Shown here: positions 15,047 through 18,383 of the stretch, piece after piece | How the letters are laid out: each line of letters starts with the position of its first letter | Position numbering within the stretch: the stretch's first letter is position 1 | Origin: Flavobacteriia bacterium | Lineage (GTDB): Bacteria; Bacteroidota; Bacteroidia; Flavobacteriales_D; Crocinitomicaceae | Length of the DNA stretch: 48,056 nucleotides | NCBI GenBank assembly: GCA_947458955.1 | Contig: CANGZT010000005.1 | Coordinates: 1 to 48,056, forward strand | Direction of reading: 5' to 3' | Translations under genes and position numbers: made by a program | Notes under the pieces: model-generated | What the model saw: the letters and a program-made list of their open reading frames with translations, nothing else | Told to the model about the DNA's origin: nothing | The model's database searches: none

Positions 15047-15691
15047 TTATTCTATTCCGTATTTCATTGCAAATTTCACTAAACCTACAGCCGATTTAAC
15101 TCCTATTTTCTCCATGATTTTATTCCTATGACCTTCAACCGTTCTTTTACTTATAAATAATTGATCACCAATCTCTTTGGAAGTCATTTCTTTAACGAGC
15201 ATGGAAATAATTTGAATTTCACGAAGTGTCAGGTTAAATTCATTTTGAATTAAAGTAGGTTGATTTTCACTTTTTTGTTTAAATAAAATATCTGCTACTT
15301 CATTTGATAAGTATCGATCTCTTTTGAGAGTAGTTATTATTGCTCTAGTTATTTCTTCTAGATTTGAATTTTTTAAAATATAACCTGCTGCACCTTTTGA
15401 TAATGCGTTTCTGATTAAGTCTTCTTCTTTATGCATTGTGAGCATGAGAACAGGAGTTTCAATTTCTTGCTCTTTGATTTTTTTTAAAGTTGAAATACCA
15501 TCTAAAACAGGCATATTTATATCTAGCATAATTAAATCAAAAGCTTGTTTTTCTAGTAATTTAAGTGCTTCTTTTCCATTTTTAGCAGGAGTTATTTTAA
15601 GATCAATGTTTTTTTGAGTCTCTAACATGAGTGTCAAGCCTTTTATTACCAATTCATGGTCATCAACCAACAGTAAATTAATTATTTTCAT
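15047..15691 (-). CDS. NarL/LuxR-type response regulator
   Basis: 214 residues. Receiver domain at 1-120 with acidic pocket D10/D11, phosphoacceptor D57 (LIMLDINMP), and conserved T85/K88 (LTMHKEED). A LuxR-type helix-turn-helix follows at about 150-212 (LTLREIQIISMLVKEMTSKE ... RTVEGHRNKIMEKIGV). It overlaps the 3' end of the histidine kinase gene by 14 bp, so it is almost certainly its cognate regulator. Targets are unknown; the 24-bp palindrome at 17777-17800 upstream of the operon is a candidate binding site. Confidence 0.93.
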   Translation of the reverse strand: MKIINLLLVDDHELVIKGLTLMLETQKNIDLKITPAKNGKEALKLLEKQAFDLIMLDINMPVLDGISTLKKIKEQEIETPVLMLTMHKEEDLIRNALSKGAAGYILKNSNLEEITRAIITTLKRDRYLSNEVADILFKQKSENQPTLIQNEFNLTLREIQIISMLVKEMTSKEIGDQLFISKRTVEGHRNKIMEKIGVKSAVGLVKFAMKYGIE

Positions 15692-16955
15692 AAAGCGTAA
15701 AAATTAAACAGGTACCATGATTTTTATTACTTAACCATTCATATTCAGCTTCAAGAATATCTAATCTGTGGTTTATATTTCTAAGGCCATTATTTTTTTG
15801 AACAGTATCCAAATCAAATCCAATTCCATCATCTTTAAGGTTAAAAATAATTTGACTTTTTTTCTTTGAAATATTGATATCTAAATGTTTTGCTTGAGAA
15901 TGTTTTACAGAGTTAGTAATAAATTCTTGTACAATTCGATAAATAATACTTTCTTCTTTTTTGTCTTTTCTGGTTAAATTAGATACCGAGGAATTAAAAG
16001 ATATTATCGCTGTATACACTGAATTTGATTGTTTACAAAGTTGATCTATTGCAATATCTAAAGTGTTGTTTTCTAAAATAAAAGGCATTAAATCAAATGA
16101 AATTGCACGAACAGATGAAATAGTATCATTCATCATTTTATCGATTTCTTGCAAACATTCTTTAAATTCGACTGTGTTTTTTTCCATCAATGAAAGGGAT
16201 CCTAAGTAAAATTTAATCGCGCCAAGCTCTTGACCTAGTGTATCATGTAGATCAGATGCTAATCGTTTTCTTTCTTGATCTTGTCCTTGAATGATTCCCT
16301 TTAGTGTGTTTAGTTCAGCATTTTTTTGTTGAGTGATATCTTTACAGATTAATAAAATTTGATCTTTTTGTTCAAATTCTATATTAATCAAATTTATTTC
16401 GAAATAATCAGTAGTAAGGTCTTTGTTTTTAAGTGATAAGAAAAATACTTCTTGTTGTTTCTGAGTTTGTTTGAAAAACTCAATTCTATTCCCAAGTCGT
16501 TTTGGAATATATTCATCAATCAAAAAATATTTCTTGACGATTTTATCATTTAAGAATTTTTCACCCTCACTATTACTGTAATAGATGTTGTTGTTAAAAT
16601 CAAAAACAAAGATTTGCTCTGGTAAAGTTTTGAGAATTAAATTGAAGTTTTCTTTATTTATTGTATTAATTTCTAATTCATCGATGTACGCATTAATACC
16701 TTCTCCTAGTATTTGAAAATCGTATTTGAATTCATCTACTGGGAATTTTTTATAAAGGTTATCCGCCATATTATTATGGAGATGTTCAACAATTGCATTC
16801 CTAAGATTTCTTTCTTCAGTACTTTTCGATTTTAATAGTTCTAATTCTTTGTATAAATTTTCAATGTTATTTTCGATAGTCAGTTTTGGTACAAATTCAT
16901 CAAAATTGATTTCACGAAGTGTATTTATGATTTTATCAATTTCTTTTTGATTCAT
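15678..16955 (-). CDS. Soluble PAS-domain sensor histidine kinase (HisKA_3 type)
   Basis: 425 residues with no membrane span, so it senses inside the cell. The N-terminal 100 residues are helical and unassigned; a PAS-like domain follows at about 104-215 (LPEQIFVFDFNNNIYYSNSE ... LLICKDITQQKNAEL); HisKA_3 dimerisation/phosphoacceptor region has the motif ERKRLASDLHDTLGQE with H237; the ATPase domain shows N348 (EFITNSVKHS) and the G box DDGIGFD (about 375-381) with a later NNGLRNINHR. NarL-type partner gene overlaps its end. Its start overlaps by 20 bp the end of a small STAS-like gene, making translational coupling likely. The two STAS-like proteins are obvious candidates for supplying or modulating the signal. 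Confidence 0.93.
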   Translation of the reverse strand: MNQKEIDKIINTLREINFDEFVPKLTIENNIENLYKELELLKSKSTEERNLRNAIVEHLHNNMADNLYKKFPVDEFKYDFQILGEGINAYIDELEINTINKENFNLILKTLPEQIFVFDFNNNIYYSNSEGEKFLNDKIVKKYFLIDEYIPKRLGNRIEFFKQTQKQQEVFFLSLKNKDLTTDYFEINLINIEFEQKDQILLICKDITQQKNAELNTLKGIIQGQDQERKRLASDLHDTLGQELGAIKFYLGSLSLMEKNTVEFKECLQEIDKMMNDTISSVRAISFDLMPFILENNTLDIAIDQLCKQSNSVYTAIISFNSSVSNLTRKDKKEESIIYRIVQEFITNSVKHSQAKHLDINISKKKSQIIFNLKDDGIGFDLDTVQKNNGLRNINHRLDILEAEYEWLSNKNHGTCLIFTLYENN

Positions 16956-17343
16956 TTAGTTTTCTTTGTTTTAATAACCAGTTAATTGCCTCTGTTCTGT
17001 CTGTAAATGCACGAAACGGTATTTTAGGTTTTTTAATTGCTATAAAAATATTCACTATATATTTTTGAAGATGATTATGCACGAGCGCAGCTGAAGCATG
17101 TAAAAAATCTTGTCCGTATTTATCTGCAAATTCTTTGCCTTCAGCAGGCATTCCTTTGATATTTTTAAAGTCGTATAACCAATATTGTTTCTCACCTGCT
17201 GAAATTTTATGTCTCATCTCAATTAACTTTTGGCAAGTAGAAAGATCTAGTAGTATTTCTTTTTTTATATAGCTATTAAGTATACCATTTTCATCAAACC
17301 AATATTTTTGAATGTCATCTTCTAACTCTACTATCGGATTCAT
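16936..17343 (-). CDS. STAS/SpoIIAA-like small protein, copy 2 of a tandem pair
   Basis: 135 residues, soluble. It resembles the STAS-like proteins common in Bacteroidota (DUF7793-type, my recollection): a beta strand with an aromatic DENGILNSYI segment, helix CQKLIEMRHKI, strand QYWLYDFKNIKGM, then helix AEGKEFADKYGQDFLHASA, strand/helix ALVHNHLQKYIVNIF, and the closing KKPKIPFRAFTDRTEAINWL. The usual STAS phospho-acceptor serine/threonine loop is not evident. It is clearly homologous to its upstream neighbour, overlapping it by 29 bp and overlapping the kinase gene by 20 bp. A role as a protein-interaction input to the kinase is inference from gene order. Confidence 0.75.
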   Translation of the reverse strand: MNPIVELEDDIQKYWFDENGILNSYIKKEILLDLSTCQKLIEMRHKISAGEKQYWLYDFKNIKGMPAEGKEFADKYGQDFLHASAALVHNHLQKYIVNIFIAIKKPKIPFRAFTDRTEAINWLLKQRKLNESKRN

Positions 17344-17722
17344 TTTTTGAATTTTTTATAGTTAATAACCAATCTATTGCTTTTTGTTTACTCGTAAAAA
17401 TATGAGTAGGTATTTTAGGCTTTTTTACTTTCAAAAAAGTAGAAATTAAAAATTTTTGAAAATGGGAATTTACTAAAATGGCTGAAGCATAAAGATAATC
17501 TTGTCCATGTCTTGATAAATATTCTTTAGCATTCCTATCTAGAGATCTAATTCGGTTTAAATCGTACAACCAATATTGTTTTTTTCCTTCTGATATTTCA
17601 TGTCTTAAATGAATACATTCAATACAATTTTCAAGGTTTAAGTCAATATCTTGTATAAAGATGGAGTACAAAATATCATCTTCAAACCAAAACTTCATGT
17701 ATTTGTTAGTTGCTTCTTTCAT
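17315..17722 (-). CDS. STAS/SpoIIAA-like small protein, copy 1 of a tandem pair
   Basis: 135 residues, soluble, same length as the following copy. Shared blocks: LRHEISEGKKQYWLYDLNRI versus MRHKISAGEKQYWLYDFKNI, AKEYLSRHGQDYLYASAILV versus GKEFADKYGQDFLHASAALV, and KKPKIPTHIFTSKQKAIDWL versus KKPKIPFRAFTDRTEAINWL. The N-terminal ~35 residues differ most. First gene of the four-gene signalling operon, preceded by TATCTTTG (17740-17747, read leftward) and by a perfect palindrome at 17777-17800. Family assignment rests on fold-like pattern and recollection, so the functional name is tentative. Confidence 0.75.
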   Translation of the reverse strand: MKEATNKYMKFWFEDDILYSIFIQDIDLNLENCIECIHLRHEISEGKKQYWLYDLNRIRSLDRNAKEYLSRHGQDYLYASAILVNSHFQKFLISTFLKVKKPKIPTHIFTSKQKAIDWLLTIKNSKNESDSRVRR

Positions 17723-17739
17723 TCAATTTGTTTCAATTA

Positions 17740-17747
17740 CAAAGATA
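17740..17747 (-). promoter_or_regulatory. Putative -7 promoter element of the signalling operon
   Basis: Leftward TATCTTTG fits TAnnTTTG and is 18 nt upstream of the ATG at 17722. A TTG lies 24 nt further upstream (17774-17772), longer than the 19-nt spacing seen elsewhere in the window, so the -33 element is poor and the promoter may need an activator. Confidence 0.45.
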
Positions 17748-17776
17748 TCAAGTGATAAATAATTTTCGGTTCAAAA

Positions 17777-17800
17777 AAAACAGGTATTTATACCTGTTTT
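17777..17800. promoter_or_regulatory. Perfect 24-bp inverted repeat upstream of the signalling operon
   Basis: AAAACAGGTA-TTTA-TACCTGTTTT: 10-bp arms with a 4-nt centre, 30 nt upstream of the putative -7 element, in the divergent region between the STAS/kinase operon and the dksA-like gene. On the minus strand it is followed by T8, so it could also be read as a terminator, but no leftward gene precedes it. Candidate operator for the NarL-type regulator. Confidence 0.5.
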
Positions 17801-18002
17801 CAATCGTATTTGTACTAGTGTTAAACTATGTTTTGAATTTCATGTTTAGTTGAGTCTATTTATTTTTAAAATGAGATTTCATTAAAATTTGAGCTGTAAG
17901 AGTCTAATTTAAAATAAATAAATACAACACGTTAGTTGAATTTTTAATTAATAGTTTTGAAATAAAAAATTCAGTTATATTTGTTTCTCAAAAAAATGAG
18001 CT
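17801..18002. other. AT-rich divergent intergenic region
   Basis: No open frame of note. It carries the putative promoter of the dksA-like gene, TATATTTG at 17976-17983, 20 nt before the ATG at 18003, with a TTG 16 nt upstream (17957-17959), plus a short imperfect AATGA/TCATT dyad near 17870. Nothing else seen. Confidence 0.4.
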
Positions 18003-18383
18003 ATGTCTACTGAAAAAACAAGATATTCAGACGCTGAATTGCAAGAGTTTAAAGCGTTAATTCATAAAAAAATAGATGAAGCAGAAAAAGATTATGCTTT
18101 GTTAAGAAATTCCCTTTCATTATCTGATGATCATGGGACTGATGATACAGGTAGAACATTTAATATGATGGAAGATGGTTCTGAAACTTTATCACGCGAG
18201 GAAGTGGCTCAATTATGCTCTCGTCAAGAAACTTTTATCAAAAACCTACAGCAAGCTTTAGTTAGAATTGAAAACAAAACATACGGAGTTTGTCGTGAAA
18301 CAGGAAAATTAATTCAAAAAGAAAGATTGTTATTGGTACCTCATGCTACATTGAGTATTGAAGCTAAAAATGCTAAAAAATAA
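18003..18383 (+). CDS. TraR/DksA family protein with degenerate zinc finger
   Basis: 126 residues. An N-terminal coiled-coil (about 10-90) is followed by the DksA-like end YGVCRETGKLIQKERLLLVP (about 94-113) and HATLSIEAK. In classical DksA four cysteines hold zinc; here only C97 remains in that motif (T100 in the second place, H114 later), which is usual for this Bacteroidota subfamily as I recall it. Likely acts on RNA polymerase through the secondary channel; the acidic tip DDHGTDDTG (about 42-50) fits that idea. The gene is followed 1 nt later by lspA, the arrangement common in this phylum. Confidence 0.87.
   Translation: MSTEKTRYSDAELQEFKALIHKKIDEAEKDYALLRNSLSLSDDHGTDDTGRTFNMMEDGSETLSREEVAQLCSRQETFIKNLQQALVRIENKTYGVCRETGKLIQKERLLLVPHATLSIEAKNAKK

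Follow-up and report, generated by a model that had tools for sequence, protein, structure and literature searches.

The window analyzed here, the whole 48,056-nucleotide stretch of contig CANGZT010000005.1 from a Flavobacteriia bacterium of the Crocinitomicaceae, carries a compact operon on its minus strand that is transcribed in the order A, B, kinase, regulator. Genes A (positions 17315 to 17722) and B (16936 to 17343) each encode a 135-residue protein and precede the genes for a soluble 425-residue histidine kinase (15678 to 16955) and a 214-residue NarL-type response regulator (15047 to 15691). The four open reading frames (ORFs) overlap by 29, 20, and 14 bp in operon order, exactly as stated in an earlier note made from the letters of this stretch alone. 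Because the 20- and 14-bp overlaps are matched to the base pair by five of the six orthologous operons of sister genomes (46 and 8 bp in the sixth, L065), the arrangement is more than a product of chance. The tandem homologous proteins described in that note both belong to the Pfam family DUF7793 (PF25056), with expect values (E) of 9e-33 for A and 7e-29 for B and scores of 113.1 and 100.5 bits, respectively, against a curated cut-off of 26 bits. Their other Pfam matches at E ≤ 1 were to the SpoIIAA-like family, below its cut-off, and, in B, to Chromo_PTM (E 0.056). A and B are 43% identical, and the KQYWLYD, GQD(Y/F)L, KKPKIP, and (D/N)WLL blocks highlighted earlier are indeed common to both. 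Open-licence PMC papers yielded no report on DUF7793, on SpoIIAA-like proteins of Bacteroidetes, or on SpoIIAA-like or STAS proteins with a histidine kinase; the four-gene combination, which the earlier note did not recall as described, was likewise without a match there.

An AlphaFold2 model of A, based on an alignment of 12 sequences from the window and loci L056 to L060, reached a predicted local distance difference test (pLDDT) score of 88.4 and a predicted template modeling score of 0.80, with strands and helices in the order of a STAS domain. The top solved structures retrieved with this model by Foldseek were a SpoIIAA-like protein (2q3l; E 2.6e-5), the SpoIIAB-SpoIIAA complex (1tid; E 7.8e-4), and a STAS protein (4xs5; E 1e-3), whereas the SiaC-SiaD structure 7e6g came far lower in the list (best E 0.3). 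As modeled, A is thus a SpoIIAA/STAS-fold protein, in agreement with the STAS-like nature first assigned to the pair; the unrelated fold that the earlier note had named as speaking against its proposal did not occur. The kinase consists of an N-terminal segment of about 89 residues (profile match at residues 44 to 129; positions 16569 to 16826, minus strand), a weak PAS match (residues ∼102 to 214), HisKA_3 with His237, and HATPase_c, in which Asp375 is kept. The regulator combines Response_reg and GerE and keeps Asp57, Thr85, and Lys107. Acceptor histidine, ATPase domain, receiver aspartate, and GerE domain of a HisKA_3/NarL two-component system are therefore all present. No membrane helix was found in the kinase (maximum KD19 hydrophobicity, 0.95). 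The initial description of a soluble PAS kinase with a NarL regulator holds for solubility, HisKA_3, and GerE, whereas PAS appears in the window kinase only below the cut-off (TIGR00229; E 0.006); some related kinases (L095, L097, and L099) have PAS above Pfam cut-offs.

The N-terminal segment, for which "HAMP-like segment" serves here as a working name, is the proposed docking site of DUF7793. A segment profile of 15 rows, all from DUF7793-adjoining genes, matched 56 places in 99 genomes. By locus check, 46 of them have DUF7793 directly upstream on the same strand (distance between domain and segment, no more than 428 bp) or are fused to it, and coordinate comparison added one more (G031:C19), for a total of 47/56, or 46/51 at E ≤ 1e-6; 10 of the paired places are the profile's own rows. 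Tallies made by reading the match lists of one set of 30 genomes gave 81 HisKA_3, 114 DUF7793, and 26 segment places. All 15 HisKA_3 genes directly behind DUF7793 had the segment, whereas none of the other 66 had it at E ≤ 1e-3 and none was directly behind DUF7793, the nearest of them being divergent and about 1.5 kb off. Conversely, DUF7793 precedes 21 of the 26 segment places. The outputs behind the segment vary and comprise HisKA_3, HisKA_2, HisKA, hybrid kinase, AraC, and PAS-only proteins. In family f17, which belongs to the same class, an AraC-type gene replaces kinase and regulator, and the AraC N-termini are homologous to those of the kinases in 8/8 cases (E 1e-22 to 2e-12 with only those eight sequences searched; hhalign probability 98.6, E 9.6e-16). 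Within fetched loci, many of them retrieved because of DUF7793, the segment is borne at E ≤ 1e-6 by 67 ORFs, of which 62 are preceded by DUF7793 or fused to it: 30/31 with HisKA_3, 8/8 with AraC, and, in a class of other kinases and PAS proteins sorted roughly by motifs, 22/26 upstream plus two fused. The 80 neighborhoods fetched first (40 more were added later) were picked from the matches listed, mostly high-scoring for DUF7793, so that counts on them are not those of a random sample. In the two fusions, L167 (545 residues) and L170 (522 residues), DUF7793, segment, PAS, and a kinase-like end follow each other in the order of the split genes; no Pfam kinase domain was detected in either at E ≤ 0.001, and a kinase profile matches L167 only. 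Collectively, these associations make the N-terminal segment the likely partner of DUF7793, whatever the output domain.

Of 149 relatives, 99 have DUF7793, and a single genome can hold as many as 25 copies; a draw of 296 genomes across the phylum included 17 with the family, and none of 14 named control genomes has it. Two related locus types exist in the window's genus. Type 1, found in the window and six sister genomes, has two or three DUF7793 ORFs, the kinase, the regulator, and then a 207-residue gene 44 to 46 bp further on, and it provides the conserved neighborhood that the earlier note had proposed to look for. Type 2 (seven genomes) has an ∼800-residue gene, DUF7793, kinase, and regulator. 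The ∼800-residue protein, referred to here as synthase-GNAT, is a pyridoxal 5′-phosphate (PLP) enzyme of the alpha-oxoamine-synthase kind (Aminotran_1_2). In the kinase tree, all type 1 members group together (100/99), next to five of the seven type 2 kinases of the genus; the remaining two, L073 and L076, fall outside. In the DUF7793 tree, A-like and B-like proteins make up separate clades (100/97 and 100/99), the two copies of L065 are unresolved, and both copies of L070 group with A. From these trees we infer that the window module derives from a synthase-linked lineage, left its synthase neighbor, and then doubled DUF7793. Other arrangements of the family were also seen. The genome with 25 DUF7793 places has five in tandem (G015:C1:474282-476888), next to which neither a HisKA_3 nor a segment-bearing gene is listed; a two-domain DUF7793 protein of 262 residues (L083:5718-6506) is followed by a single-domain one (L083:6532-6933), with a coenzyme A ligase-type gene (ATP-grasp_2/Ligase_CoA) upstream; and four tandem DUF7793 ORFs plus a 61-residue fragment lie ahead of a PKD/CHU_C protein (L096:3909-6192).

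Upstream of A, the window contains a perfect 24-bp palindrome (17777 to 17800, minus strand) with the core GTATNNATAC, a candidate operator of the regulator that the earlier note did not mention. About 29 bp separate it from a downstream TATCTTTG box (17740 to 17747, minus strand), which we take to be a −7 promoter box of the Bacteroidota type and which recurs in L070, L072, and L077. The core is present in 7/7 type 1 promoters, and a second site, one mismatch off, occurs 22 bp upstream in six of them; in the window, this upstream half of the operator-like tandem reads GTACAAATAC (minus strand) and occupies positions 17806 to 17815. GTACAAATAC is invariant in the six aligned type 1 promoters and was not found in the seventh, that of L065, even at one mismatch. 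Two perfect sites at the same 22-bp spacing exist in L084, from another genus. Overall, 12 of 43 module promoters contain the core, versus 0.0106 expected per 350 bp from a background (42 in 1,387,688 bases) that includes the promoter hits. By class, these are 12 of 35 kinase promoters versus 0/8 AraC promoters; the 35 include L080 and L161, where the kinase has no DUF7793 beside it. Since the type 1 promoters are orthologous, they do not represent seven independent events; the five further promoters with the core (L061, L084, L095, L110, and L160) all belong to different genomes. A search of the window for the 18-bp form with up to three mismatches returned a single match, perfect and at the palindrome; with the same tolerance, one or more matches arose in 12 of 100 shuffles. 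The palindrome thus fits a NarL-type operator and autoregulation, as far as sequence can tell. A wider regulon was considered and not adopted: perfect AGGTATWWATACCT is confined to the operon in four of six genomes (G000, G007, G008, and G010), with more places in G001 and G004, and one-mismatch counts in G000, G001, G004, G007, G008, and G010 (2, 17, 16, 7, 11, and 12) compare with 4, 5, 6, 6, 5, and 7 for a reversed-pattern control. A AAAACAGGTATTTATACGT block nearly identical to the type 1 operator is intergenic in four genomes (L194:3172, L195:3091, L196:3193, and L198:3117), lying in L194, the only one of these loci scanned with Pfam, between divergent DUF6624 and AAA_14/DUF4143 genes; it is possibly a second target of the regulator. 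A sigma-70 scan of positions 17600 to 18100 gave one plus-strand site versus 3.2 in shuffles, and no terminator was found there. The genes neighboring the operon are presumably QueE and DksA/TraR.

We consider it on balance probable that the two-component system of this operon is cytoplasmic and autoregulated and that it receives a putative signal through a detachable input of STAS fold. A and B would bind the soluble kinase at its HAMP-like segment and modulate its activity, much like STAS-like SiaC of the SiaABCD system, whose target is the helical stalk in SiaD. The NarL-type regulator, phosphorylated by the kinase, would in turn bind the tandem GTATNNATAC sites upstream of the operon, resulting in autoregulation. 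According to PMC8457831, SiaC binds a helical stalk preceding the dimeric SiaD output domain, with the N-terminal part of SiaC helix 2 (T68) inserted between stalk helices. The proposed docking is similar in that a small STAS-like protein would act on a segment before an output domain; it differs in that SiaD is a diguanylate cyclase, whereas the outputs here are kinases or AraC regulators, and in that SiaC is controlled via phosphorylation by SiaB, whereas A and B lack Ser/Thr at the matching place. None of the Pfam matches of A and B at E ≤ 1 was to the SiaC family. Our best reading is of a DUF7793 adaptor that would dock on the segment of two-component and AraC outputs alike, SiaC-like in action but outside the SiaC family; this would be a new input route for bacterial two-component systems. 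LiaS, NarX/NarL, and UhpB share the HisKA_3/NarL-type kinase and regulator domains, but the window kinase is soluble, is accompanied by separate STAS-fold proteins, and has the HAMP-like segment in front.

The STAS fold, common to A and to SpoIIAA, RsbV, RsbS, and the stressosomes, raises the alternative of classical partner switching that the earlier note had contemplated, in which an anti-sigma-type kinase would phosphorylate A and B on Ser/Thr, a PP2C phosphatase would remove the phosphate, and the two-component pair would provide input to this cycle. The candidate phosphosite is alignment column 62, where helix 2 begins and where the SpoIIAA/SiaC phosphosite region lies; the column was chosen by secondary-structure order and not by superposition, so that its statistics are suggestive only. 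Ser or Thr occupies it in ∼61% of 74 distinct copies without an assignment to HisKA_3/AraC modules, as this alternative would predict, but A has Asp and B has Pro, and the 44 module copies have Asp (38%), Pro (18%), Thr (18%), and Ser (9%), that is, Ser or Thr in ∼27%. Moreover, none of the four operon genes, to which the search was limited, was identified by Pfam as a Ser/Thr kinase, a phosphatase, or a sigma factor; the operon has instead a HisKA_3 kinase whose His237 is kept, as is Asp57 of the regulator. Because neither a Ser/Thr at column 62 nor a suitable operon-encoded enzyme was found, classical partner switching is not supported, and we regard it as quite improbable for this operon.

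Two further alternatives arise from the synthase-GNAT gene. All of its NCBIfam matches are below cut-off (PRK07505, BioF, serine palmitoyltransferase, and, lower, alpha-hydroxyketone autoinducer synthase); its second half matches Acetyltransf_6 weakly in some members, and that of L095 retrieved nothing from the PDB at E ≤ 1. His138, Asp215, His218, and the PLP lysine Lys249 are kept in 39/39 full-length copies. When the gene was searched first, regardless of DUF7793, 33 places with a match reaching the second half were obtained among the matches listed for the 149 relatives, and 31 had DUF7793 within 260 bp; the exceptions are G141:C41, whose 9.9-kb contig has no DUF7793, and G063:C145, where the gene is a fragment and the contig 4.7 kb long. 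This linkage, together with the four kept residues and the relatives of the synthase half, would suit DUF7793 acting mainly as a small-molecule receptor for the synthase-GNAT product, an aminoketone or acylated amine, and passing its ligand state to the kinase as a cytoplasmic analogue of CqsA/CqsS. Related loci do resemble CqsA/CqsS and LqsA/LqsS in that a sensor kinase and its regulator are encoded next to an alpha-oxoamine-synthase-type enzyme. However, CqsS and LqsS are six-helix membrane kinases (PMC3376566), unlike the soluble kinase here; moreover, the synthase of the related loci carries a fused GNAT-like half, and the window locus lacks a synthase. No synthase-GNAT match was obtained in the window genome (59.8% complete), nor in G008, a carrier of the type 1 module that is 90% complete; 0/7 type 1 loci have the gene, and many DUF7793-segment pairs exist without it. 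We judge the receptor role unlikely. Still less credible is direct regulation of the enzyme by DUF7793 with the kinase merely coregulated. It would accommodate the 38 of 39 full-length copies that adjoin DUF7793 and the 9 of these 38 loci in which no segment-bearing gene was found, but both fusions join DUF7793 to a segment-PAS-kinase-like chain, and the DUF7793-segment pairing persists without the synthase, which makes a direct synthase partnership less likely. No literature was found among open-licence PMC papers on an alpha-oxoamine synthase with a Bacteroidetes histidine kinase or on its fusion to GNAT. ORFs of 76 to 92 residues beside five synthase genes were considered as carrier proteins and dropped, since Pfam scans of all five gave nothing convincing. 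Broken-looking synthase-GNAT genes stand beside DUF7793 and AraC genes in L112 and L114 (G214:C15 and G203:C1; a 169-residue piece and two overlapping frames), and G214 has a full-length copy elsewhere (L149). A MauE-family protein is encoded downstream of the synthase/DUF7793/AraC locus L113 (7716-9248), with similar-sized ORFs at this position in L112, L114, L115, and L117.

Several observations weigh against docking on the segment with autoregulation. Four segment places at E ≤ 1e-6 lack an adjoining DUF7793 (G019:C178, where it is 7.5 kb away, G020:C95, G009:C14, and G004:C118), and a fifth, G046:C178, is unpaired at a contig edge; the weaker places G005:C14, G005:C262, G123:C6, and G002:C15 are also without pairing. 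In the set of 30 genomes, 84 of the 114 DUF7793 places have no adjoining segment-bearing gene and ∼30 are paired, which means that DUF7793 must have other roles as well or also work in trans. The two fusions may represent one event, both being from one genus. The HAMP likeness consists of weak Pfam matches in 4 of the 15 profile rows (best E 0.0042), with no Pfam HAMP match in the window kinase segment, and the structure model of the kinase was too poor to use (pLDDT 62.1), at the segment as well. A segment-bearing gene at E ≤ 1e-6 accompanies 29 of the 38 full-length synthase-GNAT loci adjoining DUF7793; the other nine (L082, L103, L141, L143 to L147, and L150), of which L103 and L150 are near contig ends and L144 and L147 have weak segment matches only, slightly weaken the docking proposal. 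Finally, the palindrome core is missing from 31 of 36 non-type 1 promoters, and one-mismatch operator counts are not above the control in G000 (2 versus 4) and show no real excess in G007 (7 versus 6).

A broader and more doubtful scheme would extend segment docking by DUF7793 to a general plug-in input of Bacteroidota signaling, serving kinases and AraC regulators alike, with a receptor controlled by the synthase-GNAT product, of the aminoketone or amino-lipid type. Such an intracellular quorum- or lipid-sensing circuit would be undescribed, and the window operon would be a synthase-free daughter with two receptors. The narrower proposal is that STAS-fold adaptors control ordinary two-component kinases via a portable N-terminal segment, which offers a testable partner and role for DUF7793, a large uncharacterized family. 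If true, it would explain the input of some soluble Bacteroidota kinases, and the loci linked to the synthase hint at a signal molecule that may be new.

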